Shown: piece by piece, positions 7,223-44,542 of the stretch
Layout of the letters: every line of letters starts with the position of its first letter
Numbering within the stretch: the first letter of the stretch is position 1
From: Lactonifactor longoviformis DSM 17459
Lineage (GTDB): Bacteria > Bacillota > Clostridia > Lachnospirales > Lachnospiraceae
DNA: 64,000 nt
Direction of reading: 5' to 3'
Assembly: GCF_900129135.1 (NCBI RefSeq)
Contig: NZ_FQVI01000012.1
Coordinates: 30,776-94,775 of the forward strand
Notes under the pieces: model-generated
The model's database searches: none
What the model was told of the DNA's origin: nothing
The model's input: the letters and a program-made list of their open reading frames with translations, nothing else
Position numbers and translations under genes: made by a program

Positions 7223-7250
7223 GATAGATCAAACCCTCTTTCTCTGTATC

Positions 7251-7321
7251 AGGGTGCAAAAGGGGACGTGTTCTTTCTGGAAAGAACACGTCCCCTTTTG
7301 CACCCTGCCCTGTCCCTTTTT
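7251..7321. repeat. family palindrome, copy A
   Basis: Perfect inverted repeat 7251-7306 with 27-bp arms and a 2-nt centre. It is followed by the family tail GCCCTGTCCCTTTTT (7307-7321). The core is GGGGACGTGTTCTTTC paired with its complement. It lies between the flavodoxin gene and the diguanylate cyclase. About 50 bp to its right (7331-7380) resemble the right flank of copy B. Confidence 0.9.
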
Positions 7322-7390
7322 GCTCTCTCACTATCATATCATTAATGAATATATTTATACAATAGCTTTTTGGGAAATGGAGCATGCCCG

Positions 7391-8146: not shown

Positions 8147-8161
8147 TTCTCACTCCTCCTT

Positions 8162-8908: not shown

Positions 8909-8925
8909 ATGGTACACGCCTCCTC

Positions 8926-9282
8926 TTATTCTTCCCCGCTTCTGTCGGGCACTGATTTCATAATTGCCCTAATATGGGCACACAGCTCCATGATCTTTCC
9001 GATTTCATTGTCACAGGGATCCAGATAGTAATAGATGCAGGTCCCTTCTTTTCTGGATTTTACCACGCCGGCATCTTTTAGTATCTGCATATGGTGGGAA
9101 ACTGCCGGCCTGGACAGATTGGTCTTCTCCGCAATATCAATCACTCTGCTGCCGCTGCAGTCGCATTCCAGCATAATGCACAGCAGGTGCTGTCTGTTGC
9201 TGTCTCCCAAAGCTGTCAGAAGCTTTTGGCAGCTGATAAATTCCTGCTGCAGTGTCTTTATGTCGTCTGTCTTATGTTCCAT
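8926..9282 (-). CDS. ArsR-family transcriptional regulator
   Basis: A 118-residue winged-helix repressor. The recognition helix region reads LSRPAVSHHMQILKDAGVV (about 66-84), followed by the wing SRKEGTCIYYYL. A CDC pair near residue 40 lies where some ArsR proteins carry metal- or thiol-sensing cysteines, so metal or redox sensing is possible but unproven. It is the first gene of the operon with the two flavodoxin-ferredoxin fusions. A perfect inverted repeat lies just before its start, which suggests autoregulation of the whole operon. Confidence 0.88.
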   Translation of the reverse strand: MEHKTDDIKTLQQEFISCQKLLTALGDSNRQHLLCIMLECDCSGSRVIDIAEKTNLSRPAVSHHMQILKDAGVVKSRKEGTCIYYYLDPCDNEIGKIMELCAHIRAIMKSVPDRSGEE

Positions 9283-9295
9283 ATTCGGCCCCTTT

Positions 9296-9325
9296 CTGTT
9301 TAAGTGTTTAAACAGTCGTATTATA
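9296..9325 (-). promoter_or_regulatory. -10 element and ArsR-type operator
   Basis: The inverted repeat CTGTTTAA-GTGT-TTAAACAG (9296-9315) has perfect 8-bp arms. It lies immediately downstream of a minus-strand TATAAT (9320-9325). Its position over the transcription start fits autorepression by the ArsR protein. No good -35 is visible. Confidence 0.65.
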
Positions 9326-9397
9326 ACACACTTTTTTTCTGTTGGATCATCGGTAAAGAATTTCGAGACGGAAGGGAAGCGCAGGGGCCGGTCTGTG

Positions 9398-10087
9398 CTA
9401 TTCTTTCAGCTTTCCGTCCCGGACGGTAATAATTCTGCTGCTGCTTTTGGCTGCTTCCGGGGAATGGGTGACCATGATAATCGTCTGTCCCCTCTCCCGG
9501 TTAATCTCTTCCAGCAGGGACATGATCTCTGCCCCGGTCCGGCTATCCAGGTTTCCGGTGGGTTCGTCCGCAAAGAGGATCTCCGGTCTGCTCATTAGCG
9601 CCCGGGCGATGGCCACCCGCTGCTGCTGTCCTCCGGACAGTTCTCTGGGAGTGTGCTTCCGCCTCTGGGTAAGCCCCACAAGCTCCAGCATCTGGGCAAG
9701 CCGGCCGCTGTAATCCTGGGCCCGCTTCCCGTCCAGAAGCAGAGGCAGCATAATATTCTCCTCCGCGTTCAGGTTGGGAATCAGGTTGTAGAACTGGAAT
9801 ACAAATCCTATTTTCTGCCGGCGCATCCTGCTCATAGTTTCATCGGACAGGCCTGAGAGATCCGTGCCGTTTATGCTGACATTCCCCTCTGTCGGTCTGT
9901 CCAGCCCTCCCAGGATATAGAGGAGCGTACTCTTTCCGGAACCGGATTCCCCCATAATGGAGACAAATTCTCCCCGGCAGACCTTCAGGGTGATGCCGTC
10001 CAGCACTCTGACCCCCTCCCCGCCCACGGTGTATTCTTTTACAATATTTCTGCACGCAACGGCTGTCTTTTCTTCAGATACTCTCAT
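9398..10087 (-). CDS. ABC transporter ATP-binding protein (MacB/LolD type)
   Basis: A 229-residue ATPase. It has Walker A GESGSGKST (about 47-55), a Q-loop region, signature LSGGQQQRVAIARAL and Walker B ILFADEPTGNLD. These are the hallmarks of the MacB/LolD/BceA group that pairs with FtsX-like permeases. It follows the 826-residue permease by 20 bases and completes a four-gene unit with the upstream response regulator and kinase. Family members export or sense antimicrobial peptides or move lipids; the substrate here is unknown. Confidence 0.9.
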   Translation of the reverse strand: MRVSEEKTAVACRNIVKEYTVGGEGVRVLDGITLKVCRGEFVSIMGESGSGKSTLLYILGGLDRPTEGNVSINGTDLSGLSDETMSRMRRQKIGFVFQFYNLIPNLNAEENIMLPLLLDGKRAQDYSGRLAQMLELVGLTQRRKHTPRELSGGQQQRVAIARALMSRPEILFADEPTGNLDSRTGAEIMSLLEEINRERGQTIIMVTHSPEAAKSSSRIITVRDGKLKE

Positions 10088-10107
10088 CTTCTATTCCTCC
10101 TGACTGC

Positions 10108-12588: not shown

Positions 12589-12646
12589 ATGAACACCTCC
12601 TGTGCGCTGCTCCTGCTTTTTTGTTTCTCCCGGAAGGATCGGATCA

Positions 12647-12691
12647 AAAAAGGCCGGCAGCTATCATATGATAATGATAAACTGTCAGCCT
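12647..12691 (-). terminator. hairpin with T6 run after the histidine kinase gene
   Basis: On the minus strand a long imperfect stem (GGCTGACAG ... CTGCCGGCC, with an inner TTATCAT/ATGATA stem) is followed by TTTTTT. It lies between the kinase and the permease genes. It probably ends or attenuates the kinase transcript before the permease. Confidence 0.6.
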
Positions 12692-12707
12692 TAAACTGAG
12701 CTTCAGA

Positions 12708-12726
12708 TAACCTTAATTAACCTTAA
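12708..12726 (-). promoter_or_regulatory. direct repeat, probable response-regulator box
   Basis: TTAAGGTTA occurs twice on the minus strand with a 10-bp period (12718-12726 and 12708-12716). This spacing is usual for OmpR-type regulators. It lies upstream of the ABC permease and overlaps the kinase stop codon. Confidence 0.5.
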
Positions 12727-14135
12727 GAAAAGGGAAGACGGATGAGAAAGGTGGTTCCTGTACCCGGAATGCCGAACGCCTCAATGGTTCCCCTGTGAAG
12801 TTCCGCAATCTCTTTTGCGATGGCCAGACCCAGACCTGTGCCTTCTGGGCTTTGATCTCTATCCCTGCCCCGGACGTACCGGTCAAACACTCTGGCGGCC
12901 TCCTCGTCTGTCATTCCCCTGCCATTGTCAGACACTGCAATCTCAAGGCTATCCTCCCCGGCAGATACCTTGAGGGTCAGTTCCGTTTCCGGATCCCCGT
13001 GTACGAAAGCATTTACCATGAGGTTCAAAACGGCCCGTTCCAGAAGCTTTTGGTCAAAGGAAACGGGCAGTTCTTCTTCTGTGCTCACAAAATGAATCGT
13101 CCGGTCCTGGTATTTGGGATCGTTGAGCAGGCAGATGACCAGTTCTCTCAGAAACCGCACCAGGTTCTGTTCCCTAAAATCCATGGGCAGGATCCCGCTT
13201 TCCAGCTGATAGATGACTTTCAGGTCATCCATCAGGCTTTCCATACGGTCCACATTTTGAAGCATTACTTTTGCATAGCGCCTGCAGTCTTTCCCTGCCT
13301 TTTCTCCTTCCTCTGCTAACATCTCTGCATAGCCCCGAATGGGGGACAGAGGGGTTTTCAAATCGTGGGTGATGCCGGCGATCCATGCCCTCTGCCTGTC
13401 CGCGGTCTCCTCCCGGAGGCGGTCGCTTTCCAGAAGCTCCCCGTACATGGCATTCAGGCTCTCATACAGATCCCGGTATGTCCCCCGCTTCTGAACGGGA
13501 TGGTAGCGGCGATCTGAGATATCACGGATGCATCCGGCCAGATGCCTCATGGAGCCGGCAGTCTTAAGCCCGTACAGAAGGCCGGCCACGAGGACTGCGG
13601 CGAAGAGTATTCCCGCGGAGGCCAGAATCATGACTTTTCCCCCGGAGAATCTGTCTTTATTTACATACATGGTGATTTTTTCTACTTTTAAGGGAAAATG
13701 CAGGAGGTACATGCAGGTTTTCTCCCCGCTTCCCGCGGTTCCCACATAGACAGCTGTGTCAGACTGTTCCAGAGCTCCGGCTCTGTCAATCTGCAGAAGC
13801 TCTGCCTGGGTGTAAGCTTCCTGTGCCTTTGCGGGCTTTCGGAAGCTTGCTGACTCCTTTCCCCCGGCATCCAGGATCTGCAGCCCAATCTGATTCTTTT
13901 GGAGCAGCTCCAGGCCGGATGACGTCACACGGAACCCCTCCCCTTCGGGGATGACCTGTTCCTTAAATGCTTCCCCAAAGGCGGCCGGCCAGTCACTTCT
14001 TACAGCCCCTCCCCCTGGTTTCTGCAGGGTAATCAGGGAGCAGGAGAGACCGATTGCCGCCGCAGCTGTCACCAGCAGGGCGGCAAGGAATATCAGATAG
14101 ATATGGAACGTGGTGCGGTAGCCGGATTTTCTCAT
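12723..14135 (-). CDS. sensor histidine kinase
   Basis: A 470-residue membrane kinase. It has a transmembrane helix at about 10-35, an extracellular domain, a second helix at about 165-190, a HAMP-like linker, HisKA with the phospho-accepting His in GITHDLKTPLSP, and an HATPase domain with the DNGRGM and GTGLGLAIAKEI motifs. Its ATG directly follows the stop codon of the response regulator, so the two are coupled. The partner output is very likely the adjacent FtsX-type ABC transporter. The stop codon lies in a direct repeat that looks like a regulator-binding site for that transporter. Confidence 0.92.
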   Translation of the reverse strand: MRKSGYRTTFHIYLIFLAALLVTAAAAIGLSCSLITLQKPGGGAVRSDWPAAFGEAFKEQVIPEGEGFRVTSSGLELLQKNQIGLQILDAGGKESASFRKPAKAQEAYTQAELLQIDRAGALEQSDTAVYVGTAGSGEKTCMYLLHFPLKVEKITMYVNKDRFSGGKVMILASAGILFAAVLVAGLLYGLKTAGSMRHLAGCIRDISDRRYHPVQKRGTYRDLYESLNAMYGELLESDRLREETADRQRAWIAGITHDLKTPLSPIRGYAEMLAEEGEKAGKDCRRYAKVMLQNVDRMESLMDDLKVIYQLESGILPMDFREQNLVRFLRELVICLLNDPKYQDRTIHFVSTEEELPVSFDQKLLERAVLNLMVNAFVHGDPETELTLKVSAGEDSLEIAVSDNGRGMTDEEAARVFDRYVRGRDRDQSPEGTGLGLAIAKEIAELHRGTIEAFGIPGTGTTFLIRLPFS

Positions 14136-14843
14136 TTACTCAGTCCTTTTCTTTAATTTGTAGCCAAGGCCTTTGACTGTGACAAGCTGCCGGGGATCGG
14201 AGGGGGTATCTTCCAGCTTTTCCCGCAAATGACGGATGTGAACCATAATTGTATTATCGCAGATGCTGCTGTATTCTCCCCAGACCTGCTCGTAGAGGCG
14301 CTCTTTGCTGATAATACGATCCGCATTCTCCATCAGACACAGGAGAAGAAGATATTCCCGTCCGGTCAGGTTCATCTCTTCCCCGTTTTTATAGGCGCGG
14401 CAGCTCTCCCTGTCAAGGGTAAGAGGGCCGGCTTTTAAAAGGGCAGACCCCTGGACGGCTGTCTGGTACTGCTGGCGGCGCAGCTGTGCTTTGATCCGAA
14501 AGACCAGTTCTCTGGGACTGAAGGGCTTGGTAATATAATCATCTCCCCCGGCGGAAAGTCCCAAAATCTTGTCTATATCTTCATTTCTGGAGGAGAGAAA
14601 CAGAATGGAGCAGATAGAAAATTCCCGTATTTTTCTGCATAATTCGATGCCGTCGGTGTCCGGAAGCATCACGTCCAGCACTGCGGCATCCGGGCGGAAT
14701 TCCCGGCAGAGACGCAGGGCTTCCTCCCCGGTATACGCTTTTTGTATCTCCCAAAAGCCGTCCTTTCGAAGTACTTCTTCTATCAGGTCCAGCACATCCT
14801 TTTCGTCATCTATTAAAAGGATCCTGCTGTCATTCATGTCCAT
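14136..14843 (-). CDS. OmpR-family response regulator
   Basis: A DNA-binding response regulator of about 235 residues. The receiver domain has the acidic pair IDDEKD and phospho-acceptor Asp in AVLDVMLPD, with the conserved Lys in YITKPF. The winged-helix output domain carries VWGEYSSICDNTIMVHIRHL. The start at 14843 is preferred because AAGGAAGG precedes it, although an ATG six bases later is possible. A still longer frame from 14879 would overlap larE. It is followed without gap by its kinase. Confidence 0.92.
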   Translation of the reverse strand: MDMNDSRILLIDDEKDVLDLIEEVLRKDGFWEIQKAYTGEEALRLCREFRPDAAVLDVMLPDTDGIELCRKIREFSICSILFLSSRNEDIDKILGLSAGGDDYITKPFSPRELVFRIKAQLRRQQYQTAVQGSALLKAGPLTLDRESCRAYKNGEEMNLTGREYLLLLCLMENADRIISKERLYEQVWGEYSSICDNTIMVHIRHLREKLEDTPSDPRQLVTVKGLGYKLKKRTE

Positions 14844-33659: not shown

Positions 33660-33669
33660 CTGTACAGGG

Positions 33670-33704
33670 GAAAAAAAGAAGCCCCTGACATTATAAGGCT
33701 TCTT
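33670..33704 (-). terminator. terminator of the guanidine/urea operon
   Basis: On the minus strand an 8-bp stem AAGAAGCC/GGCTTCTT (33697-33704 with 33676-33683) is followed by a run of T. It lies 18 bases after the ABC ATPase stop codon and closes the nine-gene operon. Confidence 0.85.
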
Positions 33705-33721
33705 TCCTGCACACAGTAATA

Positions 33722-34555
33722 CTATGCAAACTTTTCATGTTCTATATACCCGTTTACTTCCTTTCTCAACCGGATAAATGCCTCTGTATCCTTCAGTTCC
33801 AGCTCCCGGTGATAAGGAAGAAGGACCGGTACTTCTCTCTTAACCCTTCCCGGCCTGCTGGTGAGAACGTAGATTTTATTAGAGAGAAATACAGCCTCCT
33901 CAATGTCATGGGTTACAAAGAGCACCGTTGGCTTCTCCTCCTGCCAGATCTGCCGCATTAAAAGCTGCATATCTGCCTTTGTCTGAGGGTCCAGGGCGGA
34001 AAACGGCTCATCCATGAGCAGCACCCGGGGGCTGTTGGCCAGCGCCCGGGCTATGGCCACACGCTGCTTCATGCCTCCGGACAGTTCCCCTGGATAACGA
34101 TTGCGGAACTTTTCCAGTTTAATGGTTTTCAGATATTTATCCGCGATTTTTTCCTGCTCCCCCTCCGGCATCTTTTTCAGCTTCAGCCCGAACTTAATAT
34201 TCTCTTCCACAGTCATCCATGGGAATAAGGTGTAGGACTGGAACACCATCCCCCGATCCTCTCCGGGTCCTATAATATCATTATCCTCAATTACAATCCT
34301 GCCCCCGGAGGCTTCCTCAAGACCGGCGACCATCCGTAACAGTGTTGATTTTCCGCATCCCGAGGGACCCACGATGCAGACAAAATCATTTTCCAGTACA
34401 TTGATTTCCACATCCTTCATGGCAGTTACGGCTCCCTTCTTGCCGGGATATTCTTTGTACAGCCCTTTCACATACACGGTACTATTGGCCAGATTGGCCT
34501 CGATATGCCGCTCCCGGGGCGGAAGCTCTTTTTCTTTTTTCTTAAACCATCTCAT
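33722..34555 (-). CDS. ABC transporter ATP-binding protein (NitT/TauT family)
   Basis: A 277-residue ATPase. It has Walker A GPSGCGKST (about 59-67), signature LSGGMKQRVAIARAL, Walker B VLLMDEPFSALD and the H-loop VTHDIEEA. These residues place it with TauB/SsuB/NrtD. It overlaps the permease stop codon by 4 bases and is the last gene of the operon. With its permease and binding protein it should import the nitrogen compound that the operon degrades, most likely guanidine or a relative. Confidence 0.92.
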   Translation of the reverse strand: MRWFKKKEKELPPRERHIEANLANSTVYVKGLYKEYPGKKGAVTAMKDVEINVLENDFVCIVGPSGCGKSTLLRMVAGLEEASGGRIVIEDNDIIGPGEDRGMVFQSYTLFPWMTVEENIKFGLKLKKMPEGEQEKIADKYLKTIKLEKFRNRYPGELSGGMKQRVAIARALANSPRVLLMDEPFSALDPQTKADMQLLMRQIWQEEKPTVLFVTHDIEEAVFLSNKIYVLTSRPGRVKREVPVLLPYHRELELKDTEAFIRLRKEVNGYIEHEKFA

Positions 34556-35346
34556 ACCTGCCTACCTCCTTTTGCCCAGGGAAACAGTTTCTTATTCAGA
34601 AGTGCAAAGATGCGGTCTGTAACCAGTCCCAGAAGCCCAATCAGCAGAATTCCTCCAAAGATAGCATCTGTCTTAAGAAAACGCTGTGATTTCAGTATGG
34701 TATAGCCCAGGCCGGTATCCGCAGCTACCAGCTCCGCACTGACCAGATATGTCCAGGCCCATCCGATCATCATACGCAGGGTTTCCATTAGTCTTGGCAT
34801 CATAGCCGGGATAAGAATTCTGAAAACAGCCTGTTTGGTATCTGCTCCCAGAGTATACCCGGCATTAATGAGATCCCCCGGAACGGATAAGGCGTCGTCC
34901 GCTACCATCAAAACCAGCTGGAAAAAGGTACCGATAAAGATTACCGCAACTTTAGCGCTCTCCCCTATCCCAATCCATACCATAATCAGGGGTACAAAAG
35001 CCGGAACCGGCATATAGCGGATGAATTCACAAAGCGGGCGTACGGCTGCCTCTGTCTTTGCAAAGGTTCCCACAAGAATACCCACGGGAATTCCAAGGAC
35101 AACAGCCATCAGAAATCCCAGGCTGATGCGGATAATGCTGATCTTTGTATTCTCCCAGAGAGTGCCGTCGGAAACAGCAGTGAGATAGTACCTCAGCACA
35201 CTGGATGGCCTGGGAAGGAAAATTTCCTTTACCATCCCCGCGCTGCTGACCGCAGACCAGACCAAAAAAACTGTCAGAAAAGCCGCTGCTGCCAGAAGAA
35301 GGTATTTTTTCCTTGATATTGGTTTTCGGATTTTAACTTTAATCAT
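34552..35346 (-). CDS. ABC transporter permease (NitT/TauT family)
   Basis: A 264-residue permease with about six helices and the EAA-type cytoplasmic loop near residues 165-185 (AGYTLGADTKQAVFRILIPA). The family is SsuC/TauC. It sits between the binding protein and ATPase genes, with a 12-base gap and a 4-base overlap respectively. Confidence 0.92.
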   Translation of the reverse strand: MIKVKIRKPISRKKYLLLAAAAFLTVFLVWSAVSSAGMVKEIFLPRPSSVLRYYLTAVSDGTLWENTKISIIRISLGFLMAVVLGIPVGILVGTFAKTEAAVRPLCEFIRYMPVPAFVPLIMVWIGIGESAKVAVIFIGTFFQLVLMVADDALSVPGDLINAGYTLGADTKQAVFRILIPAMMPRLMETLRMMIGWAWTYLVSAELVAADTGLGYTILKSQRFLKTDAIFGGILLIGLLGLVTDRIFALLNKKLFPWAKGGRQV

Positions 35347-35358
35347 GGGTCCTCCCCC

Positions 35359-36363
35359 CTATTGAATCCATGTGTCATCCAGAATAGAAGCAGTATCCTT
35401 TGGCATTTTATCAATCATCTTTGTATCCAGGAGAAACTCTGCCGATTTCTGCAGCGTATAGTTCAGATGGGTGTAATCGCTGCCTGGTGTAAAGGTTTCC
35501 TGGTTTTTCTGCCTGTCAAACAGCGTAACGCCGTCCAGCATGGCAATATAGTCCTCCTTCTTAAGTTCTGCCCCCTGGCAGACAGCATCGATAAATGCGT
35601 CATCCCTCTCATTGAGCTTCTCCACGCCCTCAAACCAGGAATCTACAATCTTTTGTATTTGCTCTGGGTCTCTGTCCAGAACCTCCTGCCGTACAGCCAG
35701 TGTGTCGGGAATGAGGCCCGGCTCTTCCTTCGTACTATATAAAAGACTGCCTCCTGCCTCTATAGCGGTGGAGAGCGTTGGTTCCCAGAGTACAGCTGCA
35801 TCCACGCTTCCCGCTATAAAGGCAGGCCCTGCATCATTGATTGTCATATTCGTAAAATTCACATCGTCAATGGTCATATTATTGTCTTCCAGGATCTTCA
35901 GCAGAAACATATGCTCCAGTGTTCCCACCTCGGTTGCCACCGTTTTTCCTTTCAGGTCTTGTACAGATGTAATTCCGTCCCGGACTACCAGGCCGTCGGC
36001 ACCGTAAGAATTGTCATTGACCAACACGATTTTAAAGTCCACGCCCTCGTTCAGGGGTGCAATGGCGTCTGAACCGGCAATACAGATTCCATCCACCTGT
36101 CCTGAGTAGAACGCTGTCAGAGAATCACTGTACACAGGGAAGAATTCAAGTTTTACATCTGCCCCGTTTTTTTCAAAAATCCCTGTGCCCTTCACGCCGT
36201 ACCAGCCATACCAGCCGGTCATAGGACTGATCCCCAGTACAAAAGGTTCTTCCTTATCTGTCCCGGCAGTCTCCTTTGTGCTGCCTGCGGCTTCCTGTCC
36301 GCATCCGGCAAGCATTCCGGCTGTAAGAACAGCCGTCAGTAATATTCCTGCTAATTTTTTCAT
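35359..36363 (-). CDS. ABC transporter substrate-binding lipoprotein (NitT/TauT family)
   Basis: A 334-residue lipoprotein with lipobox LAGC (Cys21) and a SsuA/ThiY-like periplasmic-binding fold. It contains MTGWYGWYGVKGTGIF near residue 52, an aromatic-rich stretch at the expected ligand pocket. Such proteins bind small ions or amines (nitrate, sulfonates, cyanate, pyrimidine precursors). Its position in an operon with carboxylase and deiminase-type genes suggests guanidine, urea or a carboxylated derivative. It follows the second PII gene by 27 bases. Confidence 0.88.
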   Translation of the reverse strand: MKKLAGILLTAVLTAGMLAGCGQEAAGSTKETAGTDKEEPFVLGISPMTGWYGWYGVKGTGIFEKNGADVKLEFFPVYSDSLTAFYSGQVDGICIAGSDAIAPLNEGVDFKIVLVNDNSYGADGLVVRDGITSVQDLKGKTVATEVGTLEHMFLLKILEDNNMTIDDVNFTNMTINDAGPAFIAGSVDAAVLWEPTLSTAIEAGGSLLYSTKEEPGLIPDTLAVRQEVLDRDPEQIQKIVDSWFEGVEKLNERDDAFIDAVCQGAELKKEDYIAMLDGVTLFDRQKNQETFTPGSDYTHLNYTLQKSAEFLLDTKMIDKMPKDTASILDDTWIQ

Positions 36364-36390
36364 AATCCTCGCATCCTCTCTCTTATTCCT

Positions 36391-36735
36391 TTACATAATC
36401 GCCTCTAATCCCTGTTCCCCGGTACGGATACGCATGGCATTGTCAACCGGCAGGACAAATATCTTCCCGTCCCCGGCATGGTTGGTTTTGTTGACCTCAA
36501 CTACCGTATCGATCAAATGCTGCACGTCCTCATCCCTTACAAACATATCCACCATTTTTTTCGCGGCCAGACGGTGGCGGATCTCACCGTTCTCCTGGTC
36601 CAGTACATACTGAACCGGTTCCTTTCCCCGTCCGATGACTTCATGGACATTCAGGGAATGAAACCCAGCCCCATCCAGGGCTTCTTTTGTCTTAAAATAC
36701 ATTTTCGGCCGCAGTATAATCAATACTTCTTTCAT
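36391..36735 (-). CDS. PII signalling protein, NifI2-like
   Basis: A 114-residue PII-family protein. It opens MKEVLIILRP, has the VIGRGKEP turn before the T-loop, and ends with NHAGDGKIFVLPVDNAMRIRT. These features match NifI2, one half of the NifI1-NifI2 pair that controls nitrogenase in archaea and clostridia. The T-loop is shorter than I recall for NifI2. No nif genes are present. It follows the NifI1-like gene by 14 bases inside the carboxylase operon. By analogy it would bind ATP/ADP and 2-oxoglutarate and form mixed oligomers with its partner; the target is unknown. Confidence 0.8.
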   Translation of the reverse strand: MKEVLIILRPKMYFKTKEALDGAGFHSLNVHEVIGRGKEPVQYVLDQENGEIRHRLAAKKMVDMFVRDEDVQHLIDTVVEVNKTNHAGDGKIFVLPVDNAMRIRTGEQGLEAIM

Positions 36736-36749
36736 AGCAGCTCTCCTTC

Positions 36750-37076
36750 CTACAGTTCATCTTTCCCGCTGCTGATAGTAACTGCCCGTTCCACACCGCT
36801 GACGAATATTTTTCCGTCCCCGTAGGTTCCGTTTTTTTCTGTCTTCGCAGCATCTGATATAATCCTGACCACGCACTCCTCATCCGAATCCTTCACCACC
36901 AGCATCAGCATTTCCTTGGGTATCTCGTCATAGTAAGTATCGCCCACTTTGAGTCCCTTTTGTTTTCCTCTGCCCAGAACACTTATCTTGGTAGTGGCCG
37001 CAAATCCCTGTTCCATCAGTGCATCCAGAACATCTTCCGCTTTTTCCGGTCTCACAATTGCTTTTATCATCTTCAT
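36750..37076 (-). CDS. PII signalling protein, NifI1-like
   Basis: A 108-residue PII protein. It opens MKMIKAIVRPEK and carries the NifI1-type T-loop GRGKQKGLKVGDTYYDEIPK instead of the GlnB/GlnK T-loop with its uridylylated tyrosine. The ATP-binding YGDGKIFV follows near residue 85. It begins 24 bases after the allophanate hydrolase gene and precedes the NifI2-like gene. The pair is placed between the catabolic enzymes and the importer, so it may tune either one to nitrogen status. The biotin-carrier enzyme is an attractive target, because PII proteins bind the biotin carrier of acetyl-CoA carboxylase in other organisms. Confidence 0.82.
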   Translation of the reverse strand: MKMIKAIVRPEKAEDVLDALMEQGFAATTKISVLGRGKQKGLKVGDTYYDEIPKEMLMLVVKDSDEECVVRIISDAAKTEKNGTYGDGKIFVSGVERAVTISSGKDEL

Positions 37077-37100
37077 GGCATCCGCCTCCTTTATATTTTT

Positions 37101-38459
37101 CTATAACTGGCTCCCCGGCTCTGCTTTCAGAAAGGCATCCGCCAGCCCCAGAACCAGGCTTTCTGCGTCTGCTGTACCGAAAAACGTAATTCCAAAGGGC
37201 AGTTCCTCATCGTTTTTCTTCTGAGGGATCGCTGCCCCGCACAGTTCCAGCAGGTTGCAGTGGTTGGTATACAGCCCCATCTGACTGTTTGTCATTACAG
37301 GATTATCTCTCACCTGCCTGCGGGTAAAGGTTCCTCCCGCAGTGGGAAGCGCCAAAACGGCATCCTTCAATACTTTTTTTGCCTCTCGTCTGAGTTCCTG
37401 CAGGCGGTGTATCGCCCCAAAAGTCTTCGCAGCGGTATATTCTACCCTGTCCCCGTTTCTCAGAATCTCCTCTGTCACAGGAAGCATAACTCCCGGATGC
37501 TGCTCTGCAAAAATTCCCAGATCACACCACCGTTCTGCCACCCAGGGACCCTCGTATAAAAGCTTTGCTGCTTCTGCAAAGATGCCATAGTCCATATACT
37601 GTATTTCCGGCCCGAGCCCTTTCAGCCTTGCGGTCCCCTCTTCCCATTTTTCCCGGTATATCCGGGCATAATCTCCGAAAAAGGTGGGTTCGTCTTTGGG
37701 AATGCATATCCTTTGGGGAAGCTTTGCTTTTGGCTCCGGGTACTCCCGGGACCAGCAGCAGTCTTCGTCATAGCCCCTGGCCAGACGGTTTATCTCAGCC
37801 GCATCCTCCAAATTGTTGGCAAATACGGTCACACAGTCCAGGCTGGCGCAGGCCGGGACTACCCCTCTAACGGACCAGGCCCCCAGAGGGGGTTTATATC
37901 CCACAAGCCCATTTAAGGCTGCCGGGACTCTTCCGGATCCTGCCGTATCTGTCCCCAGGGAAAAGGCCGCCATGCCAAGAGCCGCCGCCACCGCTGAGCC
38001 GGAGCTGGAACCTCCGCTGATAAGCTTTGGGTTGAGGGCATTTTTCACCTCCCCATAGGGACTCCTGGTTCCCACCAGCCCTGTGGCAAACTGATCCAGA
38101 TTAGTCTTTCCCACCGGAAACGCTCCGGCATCTATGAGCTTTTGTACTACCGCAGCATTCTCTTTTGGTATATAGGCGTATTCCGGGCAGGCGGCAGTCG
38201 TGGGCACACCCGCCAGGTCAATGTTGTCCTTTACCGCAAAAGGGATTCCCCACAGGGGGAGTGAATTTCTTTCTTTGGGAAGGCGGTCTGTGTATGCCTT
38301 CATTTTCTCCCGGGAGGGCTTATCAATCCATATATGGTAGGATGCATATTGTTCCGCCCTTCGCGCGATTTCCTCTGCCAGTTCACAGGGGGTGAGTTCT
38401 CCTGCTGCATAGCTGTCCCTCAGCCATGCAAAGGTAAGTCTGTTGGGAAACCTTTTCAT
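37101..38459 (-). CDS. atzF: allophanate hydrolase (amidase domain only)
   Basis: A 452-residue amidase-signature enzyme expected to hydrolyse allophanate to ammonia and CO2. The catalytic triad is visible: Lys77 in FAVKDNID, a serine in the GGSSSGS loop (149-155) and nucleophile Ser175 in GTDTAGSGRVPA. Well-studied AtzF is near 600 residues with a separate C-terminal domain; this protein ends after the amidase domain. It lies 25 bases after the carboxylase gene, and the start at 38459 follows AAAGGAG. If the missing domain matters for the final step, another enzyme may supply it. Confidence 0.85.
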   Translation of the reverse strand: MKRFPNRLTFAWLRDSYAAGELTPCELAEEIARRAEQYASYHIWIDKPSREKMKAYTDRLPKERNSLPLWGIPFAVKDNIDLAGVPTTAACPEYAYIPKENAAVVQKLIDAGAFPVGKTNLDQFATGLVGTRSPYGEVKNALNPKLISGGSSSGSAVAAALGMAAFSLGTDTAGSGRVPAALNGLVGYKPPLGAWSVRGVVPACASLDCVTVFANNLEDAAEINRLARGYDEDCCWSREYPEPKAKLPQRICIPKDEPTFFGDYARIYREKWEEGTARLKGLGPEIQYMDYGIFAEAAKLLYEGPWVAERWCDLGIFAEQHPGVMLPVTEEILRNGDRVEYTAAKTFGAIHRLQELRREAKKVLKDAVLALPTAGGTFTRRQVRDNPVMTNSQMGLYTNHCNLLELCGAAIPQKKNDEELPFGITFFGTADAESLVLGLADAFLKAEPGSQL

Positions 38460-38484
38460 GTCAATCTCCTTTCTTCCCCGCCTG

Positions 38485-41400
38485 TCACTGTCTGATCCGT
38501 ATACAGGCTGCCATCTGGCCCGCATTCACCTGCTCCCCGGGGGTCAGGTAAATCCGCTCAATGAGTCCGGCATGCTCTGCCTCCACAGGGAACTCCATTT
38601 TCATACTCTCCAGAACAATCAGGGTTTCCCCTTCTTTTACTTCCTGTCCTTCCTCTACCAATACCTTCCAGACGCTGCCCGGAATGCTGGTCCTGGCAGC
38701 CTCGCAGCCCCCGGGTATCTCTTCCTCGGCAATTGCCGGGGCGTCCTGCATCTGAGAGTCGAATTCATCCAGTCCTTCCCTCTTCCACATCTGCCGTTCT
38801 TCCTCAAATGCGGCTTCCTGCCTGGTTTTAAACCGGGAAATGGACTCCCTGTTCTCCTCCAGAAACTTTTGATATTCTCCCAGATGAAAGGTGGTTTCTT
38901 CTATTTTTATGGGGAATTTCCCTCTCAGGAAATCCTCCCTGTCTTTCAATATTTCTTCCGCACTTACCGGATAGAATTTTATCTGGTCAAAGAAGTCCAG
39001 AAGCCACGGTTTTCCTGGTTTAAACTGTTCGGTCTCGCAAAGAGAATTCCACATCTGGATGGTCCTGCCCACAAACTGATAACCTCCCGGGCCCTCCATC
39101 CCATAGACACACAGGTAGGCTCCTCCGATCCCAACCGCATTTTCAGGCGTCCAGGGCCGGGCCGGGTTATACTTGGTGGTAACCAGACGGTGCCGGGGAT
39201 CAACCGGTGTGGCGACAGGAGCCCCCAGATACACATCTCCCAGTCCCAGCACCATATAATTGGCACCAAATACAATACGCTTTACTTCCTCCAGGCTATC
39301 AAGCCCGTTCACCCGCCTGATAAATTCCGGGTTGCTGGGACACCAGGGAGCATTCGGCCGCACCGTCTGCTGATACCTTTGTGCAGCAAGCTGTGTCTGG
39401 GGATCATCCCAGGACAGAGGCAGATGGACAATCCTGGAGGGAACCGTGATGTCCCACAATTCAGGAAGCCGGGTATTGGCGCCCACCACAGCTTCAGCCA
39501 TCTCCTCTGCACTGATTTTATCTGCATCAAAGTGTACCTGCAGAGAGCGGATGCCCGGCGTAAGGTCTATGATGGGAAGCTTTGCCTTCTGAAGTTCCTG
39601 CATTAGAATATGTACCCGGAAGCGAAGTTCTATCTTCAGCTCCATCTCACCGTATTCCACAAGAATATTTTCTTCTCCGTCCAGTCTGACCACCATTCTG
39701 ACTTGGTCTGCCTCTGTTTCCGCCAGAACCGCGTAAGAAGGATTGAGATTCTCATGCTCCGGCACAGGAAGTCCTTTGTAATCCTGCTTCAGATTTTCCT
39801 CCTGAACCCTCCGGATGTCTTCCGCCTGTTTCAGACTCATCAGGCGAAAATGTACTTTGTCTCCCGGATGCAGCTGCCCCAGCTTCCACCTTTCTCCCCT
39901 GGCGGTGGTAACCGGGCATACAAAGCCTCCCAGACTGGGGCCGTCCGGACCCAGCAGGATGGACTGATCTCCTGTCAAATCCAAAGTTCCCACCGCATAA
40001 GCATTGTCATGGATGTTCGACGGATGAAGCCCTGCTTCTCCTCCGTCCTCCCTGACCCACTCAGGGACAGGGCCGTTCAGCCGGATCCCCGTTCTGGCAC
40101 TGTTAAAATTCACCTCATACTCTGAATTCACCAGGGTATGCAGATATTCTTCCCTCAGATATTCTCCGGTAGGCTGCGGACCTGGAATCACCCCGAGTAC
40201 CCAGCGGTTGGTGAGTCTCGGCCTGGATTTCTCAGGAAATGACTCTATAGAGTCAATCAGGCAGTGTTTCTGCAGTCTCAGAACATCCCCAGCCCTTAAA
40301 ACCCTGCCGTTATGCCCTCCGAATTTTCCGTCAATAAAGGTTGCACTGCTGTCCATAACTTTGGGCATATCCAGCCCTCCCGCCACCAGCAGATAGGTGC
40401 GCATCCCCTTTTTGCATTCCTTAAATCTCAGCACCTGGAGGGGGGCTGCATGGATTACCTGGTACATGCCCACAGTCTCCCCGTCCAGAGTCGCGCGCAT
40501 ATCTGCCCCTGTAATGCAGAAACTTACACTGGTCCGGAAACGGAACCTGCCGCCGCGCAGAGTCATCTCCAGTCCCGGGGCATCCTCCGGGTTTCCCAGA
40601 AGGCTGTTTCCTATCCGGAAACTATAATCGTCCATGGGACCGCAGGGGGGGACTCCCACAAACCAGTAACCGGTTCTTCCCGGATAATCCTGGACAGTGG
40701 TCTGTACACCCCCGTCCAGGACCTCCAGAGCTGCCTCCTGGGGAGAAAAGCGCTTCAGCATCCCTGTGGAGAGAAGTCCGTTTCTGTAATCCTCTGTCTG
40801 CAGAAGGGCCTCCAGGTACTGCAGATTGGTTGTCACACCATAGATCCTGGATTCTCCCAAAACTTTCTGCATTTTTTCCACTGCATCTGCCCTGTCTTTT
40901 CCGTGTACGATGAGCTTAGCCAGCATGGGATCGTAGAGGGCAGTAATCTCCGCTCCCTTCTGAATCCAGGTTTCAACCCTGGCTTCAGGGGCAAAAGAAA
41001 CTTCATCAATCTTTCCTGTACCAGGTCTGAAGTCATTCAGACAGTCCTCTGCGTACACCCGTACTTCTATGGAATGTCCCTCACTGCAGCCTGTCAGGGT
41101 GTTCAAATCCCGAAGTTCCCCTGCCGCCTCCTTTACCATCCACTCTACCAGATCGATCCCATACACTTCCTCTGTGATGCCATGCTCTACCTGCAGCCTT
41201 GTGTTCACCTCCAGGAAATAAAAGGATTCTGTCTCCTCCTCATACAGAAATTCTACCGTTCCGGCACTCCGGTAGCCGACACTTTTAGCCAGGCGCCGGG
41301 CAGCCTCGTGCATCTGCCGGCGGACTTCGCCGCTGAGGTTCGGCGCGGGGCTTTCCTCCACCACCTTTTGGTTTCTCCTCTGTACCGAACAGTCACGCTC

Positions 41401-42072
41401 TCCCAGTGCCGCTGCTTCCCCATACTCGTTGCCGAAGATCTGTACCTCTACGTGCCTGGAACGGGGGATATATTTTTCCAGAAATACACCGTCATTTTTG
41501 AAGTTTGCCCCTGCCAGGTGACGGACACTTTCATATGCCATCTCCAATTCCTCCCGGGAATACAGAATCCGCATGCCGATTCCTCCGCCTCCCGCAGTAC
41601 TTTTCAGGATTACAGGATAACCGATCCTCTCTGCCGCTCTCACTGCTTCCCGTATTCCGCGCAGCAGTCCTGTGCCCGGAAGGAGAGGCACCTGTGCCGT
41701 CTCAGCCAGCTCTCTGGCAGAATGCTTTAGTCCGAATCGCTCGATCTGCTCCGGTGCAGGACCGATAAATGTAATACCCTTTGCCCGGCACTGTCTGGCG
41801 AATTCCGTATTTTCACTGAGGAATCCATACCCCGGATGGATGGCTTCTGCGCCGGTCCGCAGGGCAGCCTCCAGAATCTTCTCCGTATCCAGATAAGTTT
41901 CTTTCGGTGAACCATCACCCAGGAAAACCGTCTCATCTGCGTTCTTTGTATGAAGGCTGTCCCGGTCTGCGGCTGCGTAAACTGCCACGCTGGCAATGCC
42001 CATCTTTTTCAGGGTTCTCTCAATGCGGACTGCAATTGCCCCGCGGTTTGCTATTAATATCTTCTGAAACAT
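38485..42072 (-). CDS. biotin-dependent urea/guanidine carboxylase
   Basis: A 1195-residue enzyme. It has biotin carboxylase (1-450; STAGGGGIGMR, EKYIPRSRHVEVQ and VNTRLQVEHGITE), carboxyltransferase halves of the allophanate-hydrolase-subunit type (about 460-1080), and a biotinyl carrier with Lys1158 in ESMKMEFP. This is the urea carboxylase architecture. Many such enzymes prefer guanidine, and those are found with paired DUF1989 genes, as here, so guanidine carboxylase is the favoured reading. The product would be carboxyguanidine, passed to the DUF1989 deiminase and then to allophanate hydrolase. It starts 16 bases after the second DUF1989 gene. Urea as the substrate is not excluded by sequence reading alone. 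Confidence 0.88.
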   Translation of the reverse strand: MFQKILIANRGAIAVRIERTLKKMGIASVAVYAAADRDSLHTKNADETVFLGDGSPKETYLDTEKILEAALRTGAEAIHPGYGFLSENTEFARQCRAKGITFIGPAPEQIERFGLKHSARELAETAQVPLLPGTGLLRGIREAVRAAERIGYPVILKSTAGGGGIGMRILYSREELEMAYESVRHLAGANFKNDGVFLEKYIPRSRHVEVQIFGNEYGEAAALGERDCSVQRRNQKVVEESPAPNLSGEVRRQMHEAARRLAKSVGYRSAGTVEFLYEEETESFYFLEVNTRLQVEHGITEEVYGIDLVEWMVKEAAGELRDLNTLTGCSEGHSIEVRVYAEDCLNDFRPGTGKIDEVSFAPEARVETWIQKGAEITALYDPMLAKLIVHGKDRADAVEKMQKVLGESRIYGVTTNLQYLEALLQTEDYRNGLLSTGMLKRFSPQEAALEVLDGGVQTTVQDYPGRTGYWFVGVPPCGPMDDYSFRIGNSLLGNPEDAPGLEMTLRGGRFRFRTSVSFCITGADMRATLDGETVGMYQVIHAAPLQVLRFKECKKGMRTYLLVAGGLDMPKVMDSSATFIDGKFGGHNGRVLRAGDVLRLQKHCLIDSIESFPEKSRPRLTNRWVLGVIPGPQPTGEYLREEYLHTLVNSEYEVNFNSARTGIRLNGPVPEWVREDGGEAGLHPSNIHDNAYAVGTLDLTGDQSILLGPDGPSLGGFVCPVTTARGERWKLGQLHPGDKVHFRLMSLKQAEDIRRVQEENLKQDYKGLPVPEHENLNPSYAVLAETEADQVRMVVRLDGEENILVEYGEMELKIELRFRVHILMQELQKAKLPIIDLTPGIRSLQVHFDADKISAEEMAEAVVGANTRLPELWDITVPSRIVHLPLSWDDPQTQLAAQRYQQTVRPNAPWCPSNPEFIRRVNGLDSLEEVKRIVFGANYMVLGLGDVYLGAPVATPVDPRHRLVTTKYNPARPWTPENAVGIGGAYLCVYGMEGPGGYQFVGRTIQMWNSLCETEQFKPGKPWLLDFFDQIKFYPVSAEEILKDREDFLRGKFPIKIEETTFHLGEYQKFLEENRESISRFKTRQEAAFEEERQMWKREGLDEFDSQMQDAPAIAEEEIPGGCEAARTSIPGSVWKVLVEEGQEVKEGETLIVLESMKMEFPVEAEHAGLIERIYLTPGEQVNAGQMAACIRIRQ

Positions 42073-42088
42073 GATGATTCACTCCTTC

Positions 42089-42745
42089 CTATTGTCCGGC
42101 GTCCCAGATCAGCAGCCTTACGGGGGTTGGATGGTAGGCATTGCAGGGATTATTGAGCTGAGGGCAGTTGCTGATCAGCACCATAGTGTGTTCCAGAGCC
42201 TTCATCTCCACATATTTCCCCGGGGCCGACACTCCGTCGTCAAACTTCAGTCCCCCTTCTCTTGTTACCGGCACATTCATAAAAAAGTTAATATTGGGGG
42301 CCAAATCCCGCTTTCTGATGCCGTTAGTATCTTCGGAAAGCTGGAGCATAAAGCTGTCCCTGCAATTGTGCATATCTATCTTTTCCCTGGCATATCTGAC
42401 CGTGTTGCTTTGGGCGGAACAGGCGCCCCCCAGAGTGTCATGCCTTCCGGTAAGGTCTCCGGTAATCTCCAGAAGGGGTTTTCCTGACTCCGTCCTCAGA
42501 ATGCTTCCTGTGGTCAGATAAATATTTTTCTGTGCCACAATAGTGGCAATTGCTCCGTAGTGGTCCTCCGGATTTGTCATATCATAAAAGGTGGTATCCA
42601 CAGCCTGGTTCCCTTCCAAATCCTGAATTCGGAAGTACTGCCCCGGAAGCAGTTCATGCATCCATCCTTTTCCGGCCTCCAGAGTTTCATCCCATACTGC
42701 ATCCTCTGTCTTTAAACTGCTTTCTTTTCTGATAAAACCATACAT
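42089..42745 (-). CDS. DUF1989 protein, probable carboxyguanidine deiminase subunit (UAAP2 type)
   Basis: A 218-residue DUF1989 protein. Conserved motifs are GRHDTLGGACSAQSNT (about 98-113), HNCRDSF, NINFFMNVPV and CPQLNNPCNAYHPTP near the C-terminus; the Cys and His residues suggest a metal site. Proteins long annotated as urea-amidolyase-associated have been shown to act as a two-subunit carboxyguanidine deiminase (CgdAB), releasing ammonia from carboxyguanidine to give allophanate. This one matches the second subunit type. It follows its paralogue by 46 bases and precedes the carboxylase. Confidence 0.83.
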   Translation of the reverse strand: MYGFIRKESSLKTEDAVWDETLEAGKGWMHELLPGQYFRIQDLEGNQAVDTTFYDMTNPEDHYGAIATIVAQKNIYLTTGSILRTESGKPLLEITGDLTGRHDTLGGACSAQSNTVRYAREKIDMHNCRDSFMLQLSEDTNGIRKRDLAPNINFFMNVPVTREGGLKFDDGVSAPGKYVEMKALEHTMVLISNCPQLNNPCNAYHPTPVRLLIWDAGQ

Positions 42746-42791
42746 TGCTCTTTTCCTCCTGTCTTTTGGTTCTCCATCATCTTTTCCTCTG

Positions 42792-43508
42792 TCAGTGCAG
42801 CAGATTCAGATAATCCCAGGTATTTTCATACGCTCTAAAGTTCTCTGGCCTGTGAGTAACACATTTATCTGTAAGTTCCGTCTGCGGGGCCCGGTAAACT
42901 TCCATAATTACCGGCACCGCGGGATATTCCCCGGAAGGATTCAGAGGATTGGGGGTATTGGATACTATCAGTATTACATCCATCTCTGTCCTCAGAGTTA
43001 CCGATGCCCCTTCGGTGCAGTGACCCTTCTCATAATGCATGCTTCCGTCCTCCTCCACATAAACCTTGGAAAACAGGTTAACGCATGGAACCAGATCTCT
43101 GGCACTCATGTTGTTTCTTACCAGCTCAATCCTGAAATTCTCCTCCCCGCAGCGAAGCCATTCGTTCTGTTTTTCCTGGTACGTGGTTTTTCCATACTTC
43201 TCGTCTGTCATAGCTCTTGTAGTATATCCAGTTATGGTATCGTGCCATCCCAGACTATCCTCCACAATGCCGGCCAGCACTCTCCCATTGTCGCTCATCA
43301 GCACGTTGCCCCTGGTCAGACGGGAGGTATACTGTGCCTTCAGGGTATCCGGCATGTTATATCTCTCCGAGGTATCATACATGTTATACAGCAGCAGGGA
43401 TACGTTGGCATCTTCCCCAAGAGCTTTAAAACGGATATATTTTCCCCTGCCTATATTTCCCGACCACTTTTCACCAGGTTTTAATTGTTTGCTCCAAATT
43501 TTTTTCAT
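42792..43508 (-). CDS. DUF1989 protein, probable carboxyguanidine deiminase subunit (UAAP1 type)
   Basis: A 238-residue DUF1989 paralogue and first gene of the nine-gene operon. Motifs are LYNMYDTSERYNMPDTLKAQ, GWHDTITGYTTRA, ARDLVPCVNLFSKV and SNTPNPLNPSGEYP. Together with the next gene it should form the CgdAB-type deiminase. The ATG at 43508 lies 8 bases after GGAGG. A terminator-like hairpin sits between its promoter and this start, so expression of the operon is probably controlled by attenuation. Confidence 0.83.
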   Translation of the reverse strand: MKKIWSKQLKPGEKWSGNIGRGKYIRFKALGEDANVSLLLYNMYDTSERYNMPDTLKAQYTSRLTRGNVLMSDNGRVLAGIVEDSLGWHDTITGYTTRAMTDEKYGKTTYQEKQNEWLRCGEENFRIELVRNNMSARDLVPCVNLFSKVYVEEDGSMHYEKGHCTEGASVTLRTEMDVILIVSNTPNPLNPSGEYPAVPVIMEVYRAPQTELTDKCVTHRPENFRAYENTWDYLNLLH

Positions 43509-43534: not shown

Positions 43535-43570
43535 TAAAAAATGCAGGGGTACCATATGCACCCTTGCATT
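43535..43570 (-). promoter_or_regulatory. terminator-like attenuator in the guanidine-operon leader
   Basis: On the minus strand AATGCA-A-GGGT (43570-43560) pairs with ACCC-C-TGCATT and is followed by TTTTTATTTTG. It ends about 27 bases before the first start codon and lies downstream of the operon promoter. An alternative hairpin, ATGCA-AGGG-TGCAT, would break the terminator stem. The leader does not match guanidine-I, -II or -III riboswitches by eye. Confidence 0.65.
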
Positions 43571-43613
43571 CGTCTCACATCATCTGTTTTCTATTTTTCT
43601 TTGGATGTCATGT

Positions 43614-43720: not shown

Positions 43721-44479
43721 TTACATTTTATCCAGGGCAGCCAGAAGCTGTGTTCTTGTATTCACTTCCGTTTTCAGGAATACATTATACACATGCTTTT
43801 TTACCGTGGATTCGCTGATGGACAGCTTTTCACTGATTGCCGCATTTGAACAGCCTTTTACAATACACCGAACCACCTCTTTTTCTCTCCGGGAAAATCC
43901 ATATACTCCTGCAGCCCGTTCCAGGCTTTTCCCTGAACCGGAACCCGAAGCCTCCCCCAGATAATGCACATGATTGGCCAGATGATCTTTCATAATCTCC
44001 AGTATGTACAAATCCTTATCTGAAAAATCCCCCAGTTCCCTGCTGCGGAACAGGTTTGCAATTCCCAGAAGTCTGCCCTCCCGCCTGAGAACAATTCCCA
44101 GACCATATGGGATATTGTTTGGACTGAGAAATTCCCGGTAGAACTCTGTTTTCTTCCGCATAGTTTCATCCATAATATCGGTGTCCCGGTAGGTCACCGT
44201 CGCGTCTGCCAGCTCAAATACATATTTTAGATAATCTTTTTCATAATATTGGTTCACATATACCTCAAAAGCCTTGGGCGCCATCTCCAGGAAGGAAGAA
44301 TCCGAGGTATTTATCTCTCCTTCACTGTCATAGATCAGAAAATATCCCTGGGAATAGGGAATCAGCATCCGGAAGATCCTCAGTACCTTCTCTGTCAGCC
44401 TGGGAAGATCCTTAATCTCGTAGAGTTCCATCAAAACCCGACTGATGGTGTTCCATTCCGTTTCCTTTAATACAGACAT
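43721..44479 (-). CDS. LuxR-family transcriptional regulator
   Basis: A 252-residue regulator. The N-terminal 170 residues look like a GAF-type sensor, with no receiver motifs. The C-terminal LuxR helix-turn-helix starts at FSRREKEVVRCIVKG and contains ISEKLSISESTVKKHVYNV. The start at 44479 is favoured by GAGGG upstream; a longer frame to 44590 would include a hairpin. It has its own promoter and terminator and lies just before the guanidine operon on the same strand, so it is a good candidate regulator of that operon. That link is inferred from position only. Confidence 0.85.
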   Translation of the reverse strand: MSVLKETEWNTISRVLMELYEIKDLPRLTEKVLRIFRMLIPYSQGYFLIYDSEGEINTSDSSFLEMAPKAFEVYVNQYYEKDYLKYVFELADATVTYRDTDIMDETMRKKTEFYREFLSPNNIPYGLGIVLRREGRLLGIANLFRSRELGDFSDKDLYILEIMKDHLANHVHYLGEASGSGSGKSLERAAGVYGFSRREKEVVRCIVKGCSNAAISEKLSISESTVKKHVYNVFLKTEVNTRTQLLAALDKM

Positions 44480-44542
44480 ATATCCATCCCTCTTTCCGCT
44501 ATATATTTGCAGTGCATTCCCGGCGGATGCCTGAAACATAAT

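Follow-up and report, generated by a model that had tools for sequence, protein, structure and literature searches.

The window described here, i.e., the whole stretch of 64,000 nucleotides analysed from Lactonifactor longoviformis DSM 17459 (contig NZ_FQVI01000012.1, positions 30,776 to 94,775), holds on its minus strand a run of nine close-set genes (43508-33722), delimited from the open reading frames of the window and from family profiles. The run joins the enzymes of a putative guanidine-assimilation pathway to two PII proteins, here called PIIa and PIIb, and to an ATP-binding cassette (ABC) importer. Families were named by NCBIfam and Pfam profile searches with curated cut-offs, and the genes are, in the order of the run:

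42792..43508, minus strand: UAAP1 (DUF1989), putative carboxyguanidine deiminase subunit (TIGR03425, 287.9 bits, cut-off 205.95; PF09347)
42089..42745, minus strand: UAAP2 (DUF1989), putative carboxyguanidine deiminase subunit (TIGR03424, 292.0 bits, cut-off 284.7)
38485..42072, minus strand: biotin-dependent guanidine (urea) carboxylase, 1195 amino acids (aa) (TIGR02712, 1703.9 bits, cut-off 1303.85; Asp698)
37101..38459, minus strand: allophanate hydrolase, amidase domain only, 452 aa (PRK08186, 528.5 bits, cut-off 487)
36750..37076, minus strand: PIIa, NifI1-type PII protein, 108 aa, short T-loop (PF00543, 79.0, cut-off 25; NifI1 clade)
36391..36735, minus strand: PIIb, NifI2-type PII protein, 114 aa, T-loop span of 21 residues (PF00543, 73.5, cut-off 25; NifI2 clade)
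35359..36363, minus strand: substrate-binding protein (SBP) of the ABC importer, NMT1/SsuA-like (TIGR01728, SsuA_fam, 167.1 bits, cut-off 163.5)
34552..35346, minus strand: permease of the ABC importer, NitT/TauT-type (PF00528)
33722..34555, minus strand: ATPase of the ABC importer, suggested target of the PII pair (PF00005; its divergence tracks that of the pair)

The gaps from UAAP1 to the permease gene measure, in this order, 46, 16, 25, 24, 14, 27 and 12 bases, and the permease and ATPase genes share an overlap of 4 bases, the only one in the run. Coordinates and profile matches agree, and the original prediction, which had read two DUF1989 proteins, a carboxylase, an amidase-type hydrolase, a PII pair and an importer from the window, was right about this content. 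The allophanate hydrolase covers positions 6-447 of the 600 of the PRK08186 profile, its C-terminal domain being absent, and scores 491.2 bits against TIGR02713, under the cut-off of 511.05. Likewise, the SBP reaches 118.9 bits with TIGR03427, a 'putative urea ABC transporter' profile, under its cut-off of 333.9.

PIIa and PIIb lie in tandem, 14 bases apart, and the two genes adjoin each other in all the pair loci listed. Their closest solved relatives are two chains of the same entry, 9p1x_H for PIIa (3.9e-26) and 9p1x_G for PIIb (6.3e-20); this entry, for which 12 H and 6 G chains are listed, contains a nitrogenase alpha chain too. In a tree of 117 PII rows, which included 15 of the 16 guanidine-linked pairs, all PIIa-type rows group with 9p1x_H (44 rows, 100/99) and all PIIb-type rows with 9p1x_G (44 rows, 99/92), each of these NifI1 and NifI2 clades taking in 24 nif-linked copies. 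Seventeen single PIIs, Amt-linked and others, and 12 rows of a further type, PIIc, stand outside the joint group of PIIa and PIIb (99/85), and neither window protein falls with the GlnB/GlnK-type outgroups. By its place in the tree, the window pair is thus of the NifI1/NifI2 type and not of the GlnB/GlnK type, an identity that had been proposed from the letters of the window and that the clades and the match to 9p1x bear out. Within the clades, the guanidine-linked PIIa copies form one group, with L044 included (100/98), as do the PIIb copies (91/81; 95/84 with L044 added), while the inner forks of the tree are weak because only 112 columns were usable. When L199 and L212 were added in a quick tree, the two large clades persisted (99 and 93); both loci joined the guanidine group with their PIIa (93), and weakly with their PIIb (79).

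The nitrogenase-linked NifI1/NifI2 of methanogens and anaerobic bacteria resemble the window pair in being a tandem pair of the same two clades with largely the same complementary residue losses, but they lie in the order nifH-nifI1-nifI2-nifD, whereas the window operon is devoid of any nif gene. Nitrogenase-linked pairs bind and inhibit nitrogenase, an effect that 2-oxoglutarate reverses. One printed statement, that nifI genes always lie within the nitrogenase operon, is at odds with the guanidine-linked pair. Furthermore, the host genome (97.75% complete) has no match to the nitrogenase family PF00148, and its best NifH-like match, at G000:C23:38716-39519, scores 272.8 bits, under the cut-off of 394.35. 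Given the lack of a PF00148 match, the pair hardly serves a nitrogenase in this host. The pair could nevertheless act in trans, regulating a nitrogenase or some general nitrogen target elsewhere, its place in the operon being mere hitch-hiking. This would be in keeping with the close relationship of both proteins to nitrogenase regulators, and four of the genomes with pairs, G026, G576, G615 and G1021, also have nif or nif-like clusters; these genomes, however, carry NifI1-type genes within the nif-type clusters themselves, in addition to the pair and apart from it, and the guanidine PII copies group together in the tree. With the host findings added, we regard regulation in trans as very improbable. 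In GlnK-AmtB, as in the window, a nitrogen transporter has its own PII encoded next to it, but the PII there is a single protein of another clade and the transporter is not of the ABC kind. The uridylylation site Tyr51 is absent from the window proteins, which have Thr and Ile at the column that we take to be Tyr51, its numbering being that of E. coli GlnB. The host genome also has a PII gene beside an Amt-like gene on contig C35 (L058).

The two proteins show complementary residue losses. In MtGlnK2, the 2-oxoglutarate site is built of Gln39, Gly41, Arg9 and Lys58 of one subunit and of Arg101' and Arg103' of its neighbour (PMC8395244). Guanidine-linked PIIa keeps Gln39 in 14 of 15 copies and Gly41, Lys58 and Arg9 in all 15, with Thr/Ser in place of Arg101/Arg103 throughout (15/15). 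Guanidine-linked PIIb, conversely, keeps Arg101, Arg103 and Lys58 in 15 of 15 copies and Arg9 in 14, and has Gln39 in only two and Gly41 in only three. As PIIa lacks Arg101/Arg103 and PIIb largely lacks Gln39/Gly41, both halves of the site would come together only at a PIIa-PIIb interface. The nif-linked copies show largely the same residue split, which makes a heteromer logic common to guanidine and nif pairs likely. On the other hand, the T-loops differ in PIIb: the span 38-57 comprises 16 residues in every PIIa row, and in PIIb it comprises 28-40 in the 24 nif copies (28 in 9p1x_G) versus 19-26 in the 15 guanidine copies. The window PIIb, with 21 residues, is therefore without the long T-loop of nitrogenase-linked NifI2; L044 has 26, and the urea-linked copy and two copies beside taurine-like importers have 20.

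In regard to the distribution of the pair, a survey of PII genes beside DUF1989 and carboxylase genes, outlined together with the original prediction, spoke for the latter, as the pair is kept in related operons at 16 distinct guanidine loci after removal of the duplicates L093, L158 and L162: the window, L038, L039, L040, L079, L081, L082, L083, L092, L097, L099, L100, L101, L103, L155 and L199. These loci belong to Clostridia-type genomes, to Treponema and to a single genome from a different class of the phylum; Ruminiclostridium, Clostridium tyrobutyricum and Treponema ruminis (complete genome) are among the hosts. The phylum sample gave 67 NifI1-type matches in 63 of 398 genomes, and 61 of the 66 outside the window lie near nif-type genes, the other five being L199, L212, L231, L243 and L253. 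The class sample gave 32 NifI1-type matches in 26 of 391 genomes; 27 of the 30 examined lie near nif-type genes, two are guanidine-linked and one is a GlnK beside Amt, the window being a further guanidine case beyond these 30 and G093 being left out. In a class sample, UAAP2 exceeded its cut-off in four of 391 genomes, accompanied by the pair in three (the host, G576 and G615) and by PIIc in G341 (L188). PIIb matches were present in 63 of 295 genomes of the order sample, and 40 regions chosen from these matches and from the host genome comprised 18 nif-linked, 3 guanidine-linked and 4 other pairs. Neighbour labels (Nif, Amt, Pot etc.) were assigned by BLAST to reference genes; NifH, NifD, Urt, urease and PotA-like references were named by family search and the remaining labels were given by eye.

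Approached from the pathway side, the best 80 of 564 confirmed UAAP2 loci comprise 12 with the pair, 9 with a single, different PII (PIIc) and 59 without a PII, among them all 48 Bacilli loci of this set. The 11 non-Bacilli loci without a PII include seven that stop with the pathway genes or shortly beyond them (L078, L084, L094, L095, L105, L108 and L112) and two with Pot-like importers (L086 and L087); L091 and L106 show neither feature. Loci with PIIc represent a second type of guanidine operon, here type B, which holds a single PIIc and an APC-type permease instead of the ABC importer (L080, L085, L088, L089, L090, L096, L098, L102, L104 and L188). PIIc adjoins this permease in 7 of the 10 loci, and in L096, L102 and L104 the permease lies upstream on the other strand. 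L074 holds a PIIc-like gene and an APC-type permease in a stretch without pathway genes.

The neighbour that the pair keeps is the importer. The next gene on the same strand after the pair is an importer gene in 16 of 16 loci (SBP in 14, permease in 2), and the gene before it is allophanate hydrolase in five, UAAP2 in five and no pathway gene in six; in L092 and L103, pair and importer even lie on the strand opposite the pathway genes. Divergence points in the same direction. Partial correlations of pairwise distances were calculated over the 16 loci with 5000 permutations, related loci not being independent in this test, and PII distances followed those of the ATPase (r 0.67) and of the permease (r 0.48) when the carboxylase was controlled for (0 of 5000 permutations in both cases). 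The correlation with the carboxylase dropped to 0.08 given the ATPase (p 0.23) and to 0.14 given the permease (p 0.09). Taken as a whole, the importer correlated with PII at r 0.42 given the carboxylase, and the carboxylase at 0.09 given the importer.

From these comparisons we consider it probable that the NitT/TauT-type ABC importer of the guanidine operon has its own dedicated NifI1/NifI2-type pair, which as a heteromer gates the importer at its ATPase. PIIa and PIIb would assemble into a heteromer in which PIIa keeps the one half of the 2-oxoglutarate site (Arg9, Gln39, Gly41 and Lys58) and PIIb supplies Arg101/Arg103. When nitrogen is plentiful and 2-oxoglutarate low, the heteromer would bind the ABC ATPase and shut uptake, which could spare the ATP of import and carboxylation and prevent loss of ammonium. 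When nitrogen is short, 2-oxoglutarate with Mg-ATP would release the heteromer from the ATPase. Inhibition of the importer ATPase at low 2-oxoglutarate is proposed on the precedent of Synechocystis, where PII restrains uptake and has the ABC ATPase subunits NrtC, NrtD and UrtE as interaction partners (PMC6603209). The likeness lies in the ATPase subunits of ABC importers for nitrogen compounds as targets, shown for the cyanobacterial NrtABCD/UrtABCDE and proposed here; the difference is that one general PII serves several targets in the cyanobacteria, whereas the window encodes a dedicated NifI-type pair together with the importer. The original prediction had supposed that the pair was recruited to gate guanidine uptake or carboxylation by nitrogen status. 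Gating on the uptake side is still the best reading of the data, while the carboxylation side is disfavoured, as the pair stays linked to the importer and its divergence follows that of the ABC ATPase.

Several observations weigh against a gate at the ATPase. The SBP does not follow the pair (PII against SBP given carboxylase, r 0.04, p 0.37), so that the tracking result rests on ATPase and permease; the cytoplasm-facing parts of the importer track PII best. PII still correlates with the carboxylase when the SBP is controlled for (r 0.45, p 0.0002) and with UAAP2 when the ATPase is (r 0.32, p 0.02), and the kinship of the loci bears on all of these values. Importers of this kind also work without a PII, since 11 Bacilli loci have a permease 53-59% like that of the window and no PII. 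Furthermore, the T-loop of PIIa is nearly identical to that of nitrogenase-linked NifI1 and does not look retargeted. The ATPase positions set apart by PII linkage number only 13 (each shared by at least 90% of the 15 PII-linked copies and never seen in the 6 Bacilli copies); they are confounded by phylogeny, and as a PII-docking signature they were rejected. The N-terminal I/L-E-A motif of PII-linked ATPases, considered for the same role, is unconvincing because the PII-linked ATPase of L057 is without it.

Alternatively, the pair could act on the guanidine carboxylase and regulate it by way of its biotin carrier. Elsewhere, PII binds the corresponding carrier of acetyl-CoA carboxylase, and the original prediction had named the biotin-carrier enzyme of the operon a plausible direct target. 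In the window and in several relatives, carboxylase and pair do share an operon, which likewise counts against the importer as target, and the raw correlation of their distances is high (r 0.69). However, this correlation is the one that disappears under control for the ATPase, and the pair stays with the importer where the carboxylase lies on the other strand (L039, L092 and L103) or is missing from stretches that have the pair (L212, L073, L057 and L070). Moreover, homologous carboxylases occur in the ten type-B loci with a different single PII and an APC-type permease. In spite of the contrary result under SBP control, the carboxylase is disfavoured as target of the pair, and we hold this alternative to be unlikely.

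The substrate of the importer and pathway has to be considered separately. As judged from family membership of the proteins, guanidine would enter by the importer and be carboxylated; UAAP1/UAAP2 would then deiminate the product to allophanate, whose hydrolysis would yield ammonia. Asp marks guanidine carboxylases and Asn urea carboxylases at a published specificity site (PMC12186494), and Asp698 of the window carboxylase aligns opposite Asn1330 of Kluyveromyces (K.) lactis urea amidolyase. Asp occupies this presumed site in 74 of 75 carboxylases (the window and chosen loci, each at least 900 aa), with Asn in a single one, that of L106 (Adhaeribacter). Two columns of the fragment compared change from Asn to Asp, and only that of Asp698 is conserved, the second being variable; we presume that Asp698 is the site meant by the published rule. 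A guanidine-I riboswitch, searched for at the gathering threshold in all 16 pair loci, is found beside pathway genes in three of them (L039, L155 and L199), and in six of six Bacilli loci searched; in L155 and L199 its place is between the pair-importer block, which it follows, and UAAP1. The window itself yielded no guanidine riboswitch, and the host genome no Guanidine-I match among 103 scored of 352 candidates.

Alternatively, importer and pathway could serve urea or another guanidino compound. The window without a riboswitch would agree with this, as would an SBP family named for sulfonates or urea and the occurrence of NifI-type pair and importer with urease in L212 and L073. Against it stand Asp698, the scores of UAAP1 and UAAP2 above their cut-offs, and the riboswitches of the pair and Bacilli loci, and we find a substrate other than guanidine quite unlikely. 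Altogether, the pathway looks more like guanidine than urea use, and the guanidine-assimilation pathway read from the window at first gains from the carboxylase site and the riboswitches. Four guanidine operons (L097, L099, L100 and L101) have two UAAP1/UAAP2 sets, the second being 47-54% like that of the window, and the host genome has a third DUF1989-type match, under the UAAP2 cut-off, at G000:C36:63003-63575.

The flanks of the operon hold the following features:

43721..44533, minus strand: LuxR-type (GerE) regulator gene just upstream, start codon uncertain (PF00196)
43539..43571, minus strand: terminator-like hairpin in the leader, beginning with an ANTAR-like hexaloop hairpin, ATGC-AAGGGT-GCAT (-17.8 kcal/mol, z -4.1)
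33660..33705, minus strand: terminator-like hairpin and T run 3' of the operon (11 pairs, -12.3 kcal/mol, z -1.95)

The operon had been placed between one promoter and one terminator. A hairpin does follow the last gene, although 8 of 200 shuffles of 33705-33660 fold equally well, and the further terminator-like hairpin in the 5' leader had gone unmentioned. Promoter-like sites in the window are at chance level (16 found, 13.4 expected). ANTAR proteins bind hexaloop hairpins with A at position 1 and G at position 4 (PMC3369931), and the described targets consist of two such hairpins in tandem before a terminator. The hexaloop of the window has both bases, and in the 35 bases upstream of it no further hairpin of this kind was found; L098 is the only one of the listed sites with two. 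Twelve of 28 leaders contain the core GCANNGNNGC, where 300 shuffle rounds gave a mean of 0.99 and a maximum of 4, and a looser test (stem of at least 4) finds a hairpin in 16 of 28 leaders against 7.9 in shuffles (maximum 15); as the leaders are related, the excess over shuffles is not a probability. The leaders are 28 of 30, L100 and L101 having been dropped because they had no start. The single ANTAR protein of the host genome over the cut-off is encoded directly after the glutamine synthetase gene glnA (L255). A second layer of nitrogen control is thereby hinted at by the leader, with its terminator and ANTAR-like hairpin.

In other bacteria, transcription factors are among the binding partners of PII proteins, and the pair could control transcription of the operon through the neighbouring LuxR-type regulator or an antitermination protein, instead of acting on an enzyme or the transporter. 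Relatives of the LuxR gene adjoin many, though not all, clostridial copies of the operon, and the ANTAR-like leader would suit such a role as well. On the other hand, LuxR genes also accompany type-B loci, which have no such pair, and none was seen in the pair loci L083, L100, L101, L155 and L199, and the pair is contiguous with importer genes and not with LuxR, which leaves transcriptional control improbable.

A further close known system is the guanidine carboxylase pathway of Vreelandella (gca, cgdA/B, atzF and an ABC importer; PMC12508155), with the same enzyme and importer set in one operon. The Vreelandella operon has guanidine riboswitches and the window operon has none, whereas the latter adds the PII pair, the LuxR gene and the ANTAR-like leader; the word PII is absent from the text of that publication. 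Among the titles and abstracts listed, a set without most of the subscription literature, none reported a NifI/PII pair together with guanidine, urea carboxylase, urea amidolyase or allophanate hydrolase. A NifI pair, a guanidine pathway and PII control of importers are each of a known kind, and their combination was not found in the literature searched. If gating of the importer by the pair holds true, it would offer a nitrogenase-free system for studying heteromeric PII sensing of 2-oxoglutarate, suggest that the nitrogen importers of such bacteria may often be gated by PII proteins of their own, and point to guanidine as a controlled nitrogen source in them.

NifI-type pairs were also found beside importers in other surroundings. 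In L212 (G1021, 7076-14501), the pair and an importer homologous to that of the window (permease and ATPase 61%) are followed by a ureohydrolase, a third PII-like protein, a PucR gene and urease genes, and the stretch has no carboxylase. The closest solved relatives of the ureohydrolase are metformin hydrolase and 'agmatinase' entries; its reading as a guanidinase was rejected, as a Trp that would be expected on the basis of PMC11410670 was not seen at the corresponding distance. In L073 (550-11275), a pair stands between urtABCDE-type urea importer genes and urease genes, with UrtA, UrtB, UrtE and urease alpha all over cut-off. Likewise, in L057 (6549-13271) and L070 (5400-12038) a pair precedes a taurine-like importer, which scores under the taurine cut-off, and on the other side of the pair lie genes for an aminotransferase and an iron alcohol dehydrogenase; a PucR-like gene is present too. 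It is conceivable, and we put this forward tentatively, that NifI1/NifI2-type pairs are general importer gates for organic nitrogen in anaerobes (guanidine, urea and taurine-like importers), that they were recruited repeatedly, that the NifI2-like T-loop is their exchangeable part specifying the target, and that nitrogenase inhibition is one role among others of a modular pair. A private PII for each nitrogen importer may be a common arrangement.

Lone NifI1-like genes without a NifI2 partner occur in L231 (5654-5980), L243 (7148-7501) and L253 (7119-7466), the one in L243 adjoining genes that look phosphate-related by eye and the one in L253 a branched-chain/Urt-like ABC importer. In L059 (contig C29 of the host), L056 and L069, single PII genes stand directly before polyamine-type (PotA-like) ABC importer genes.

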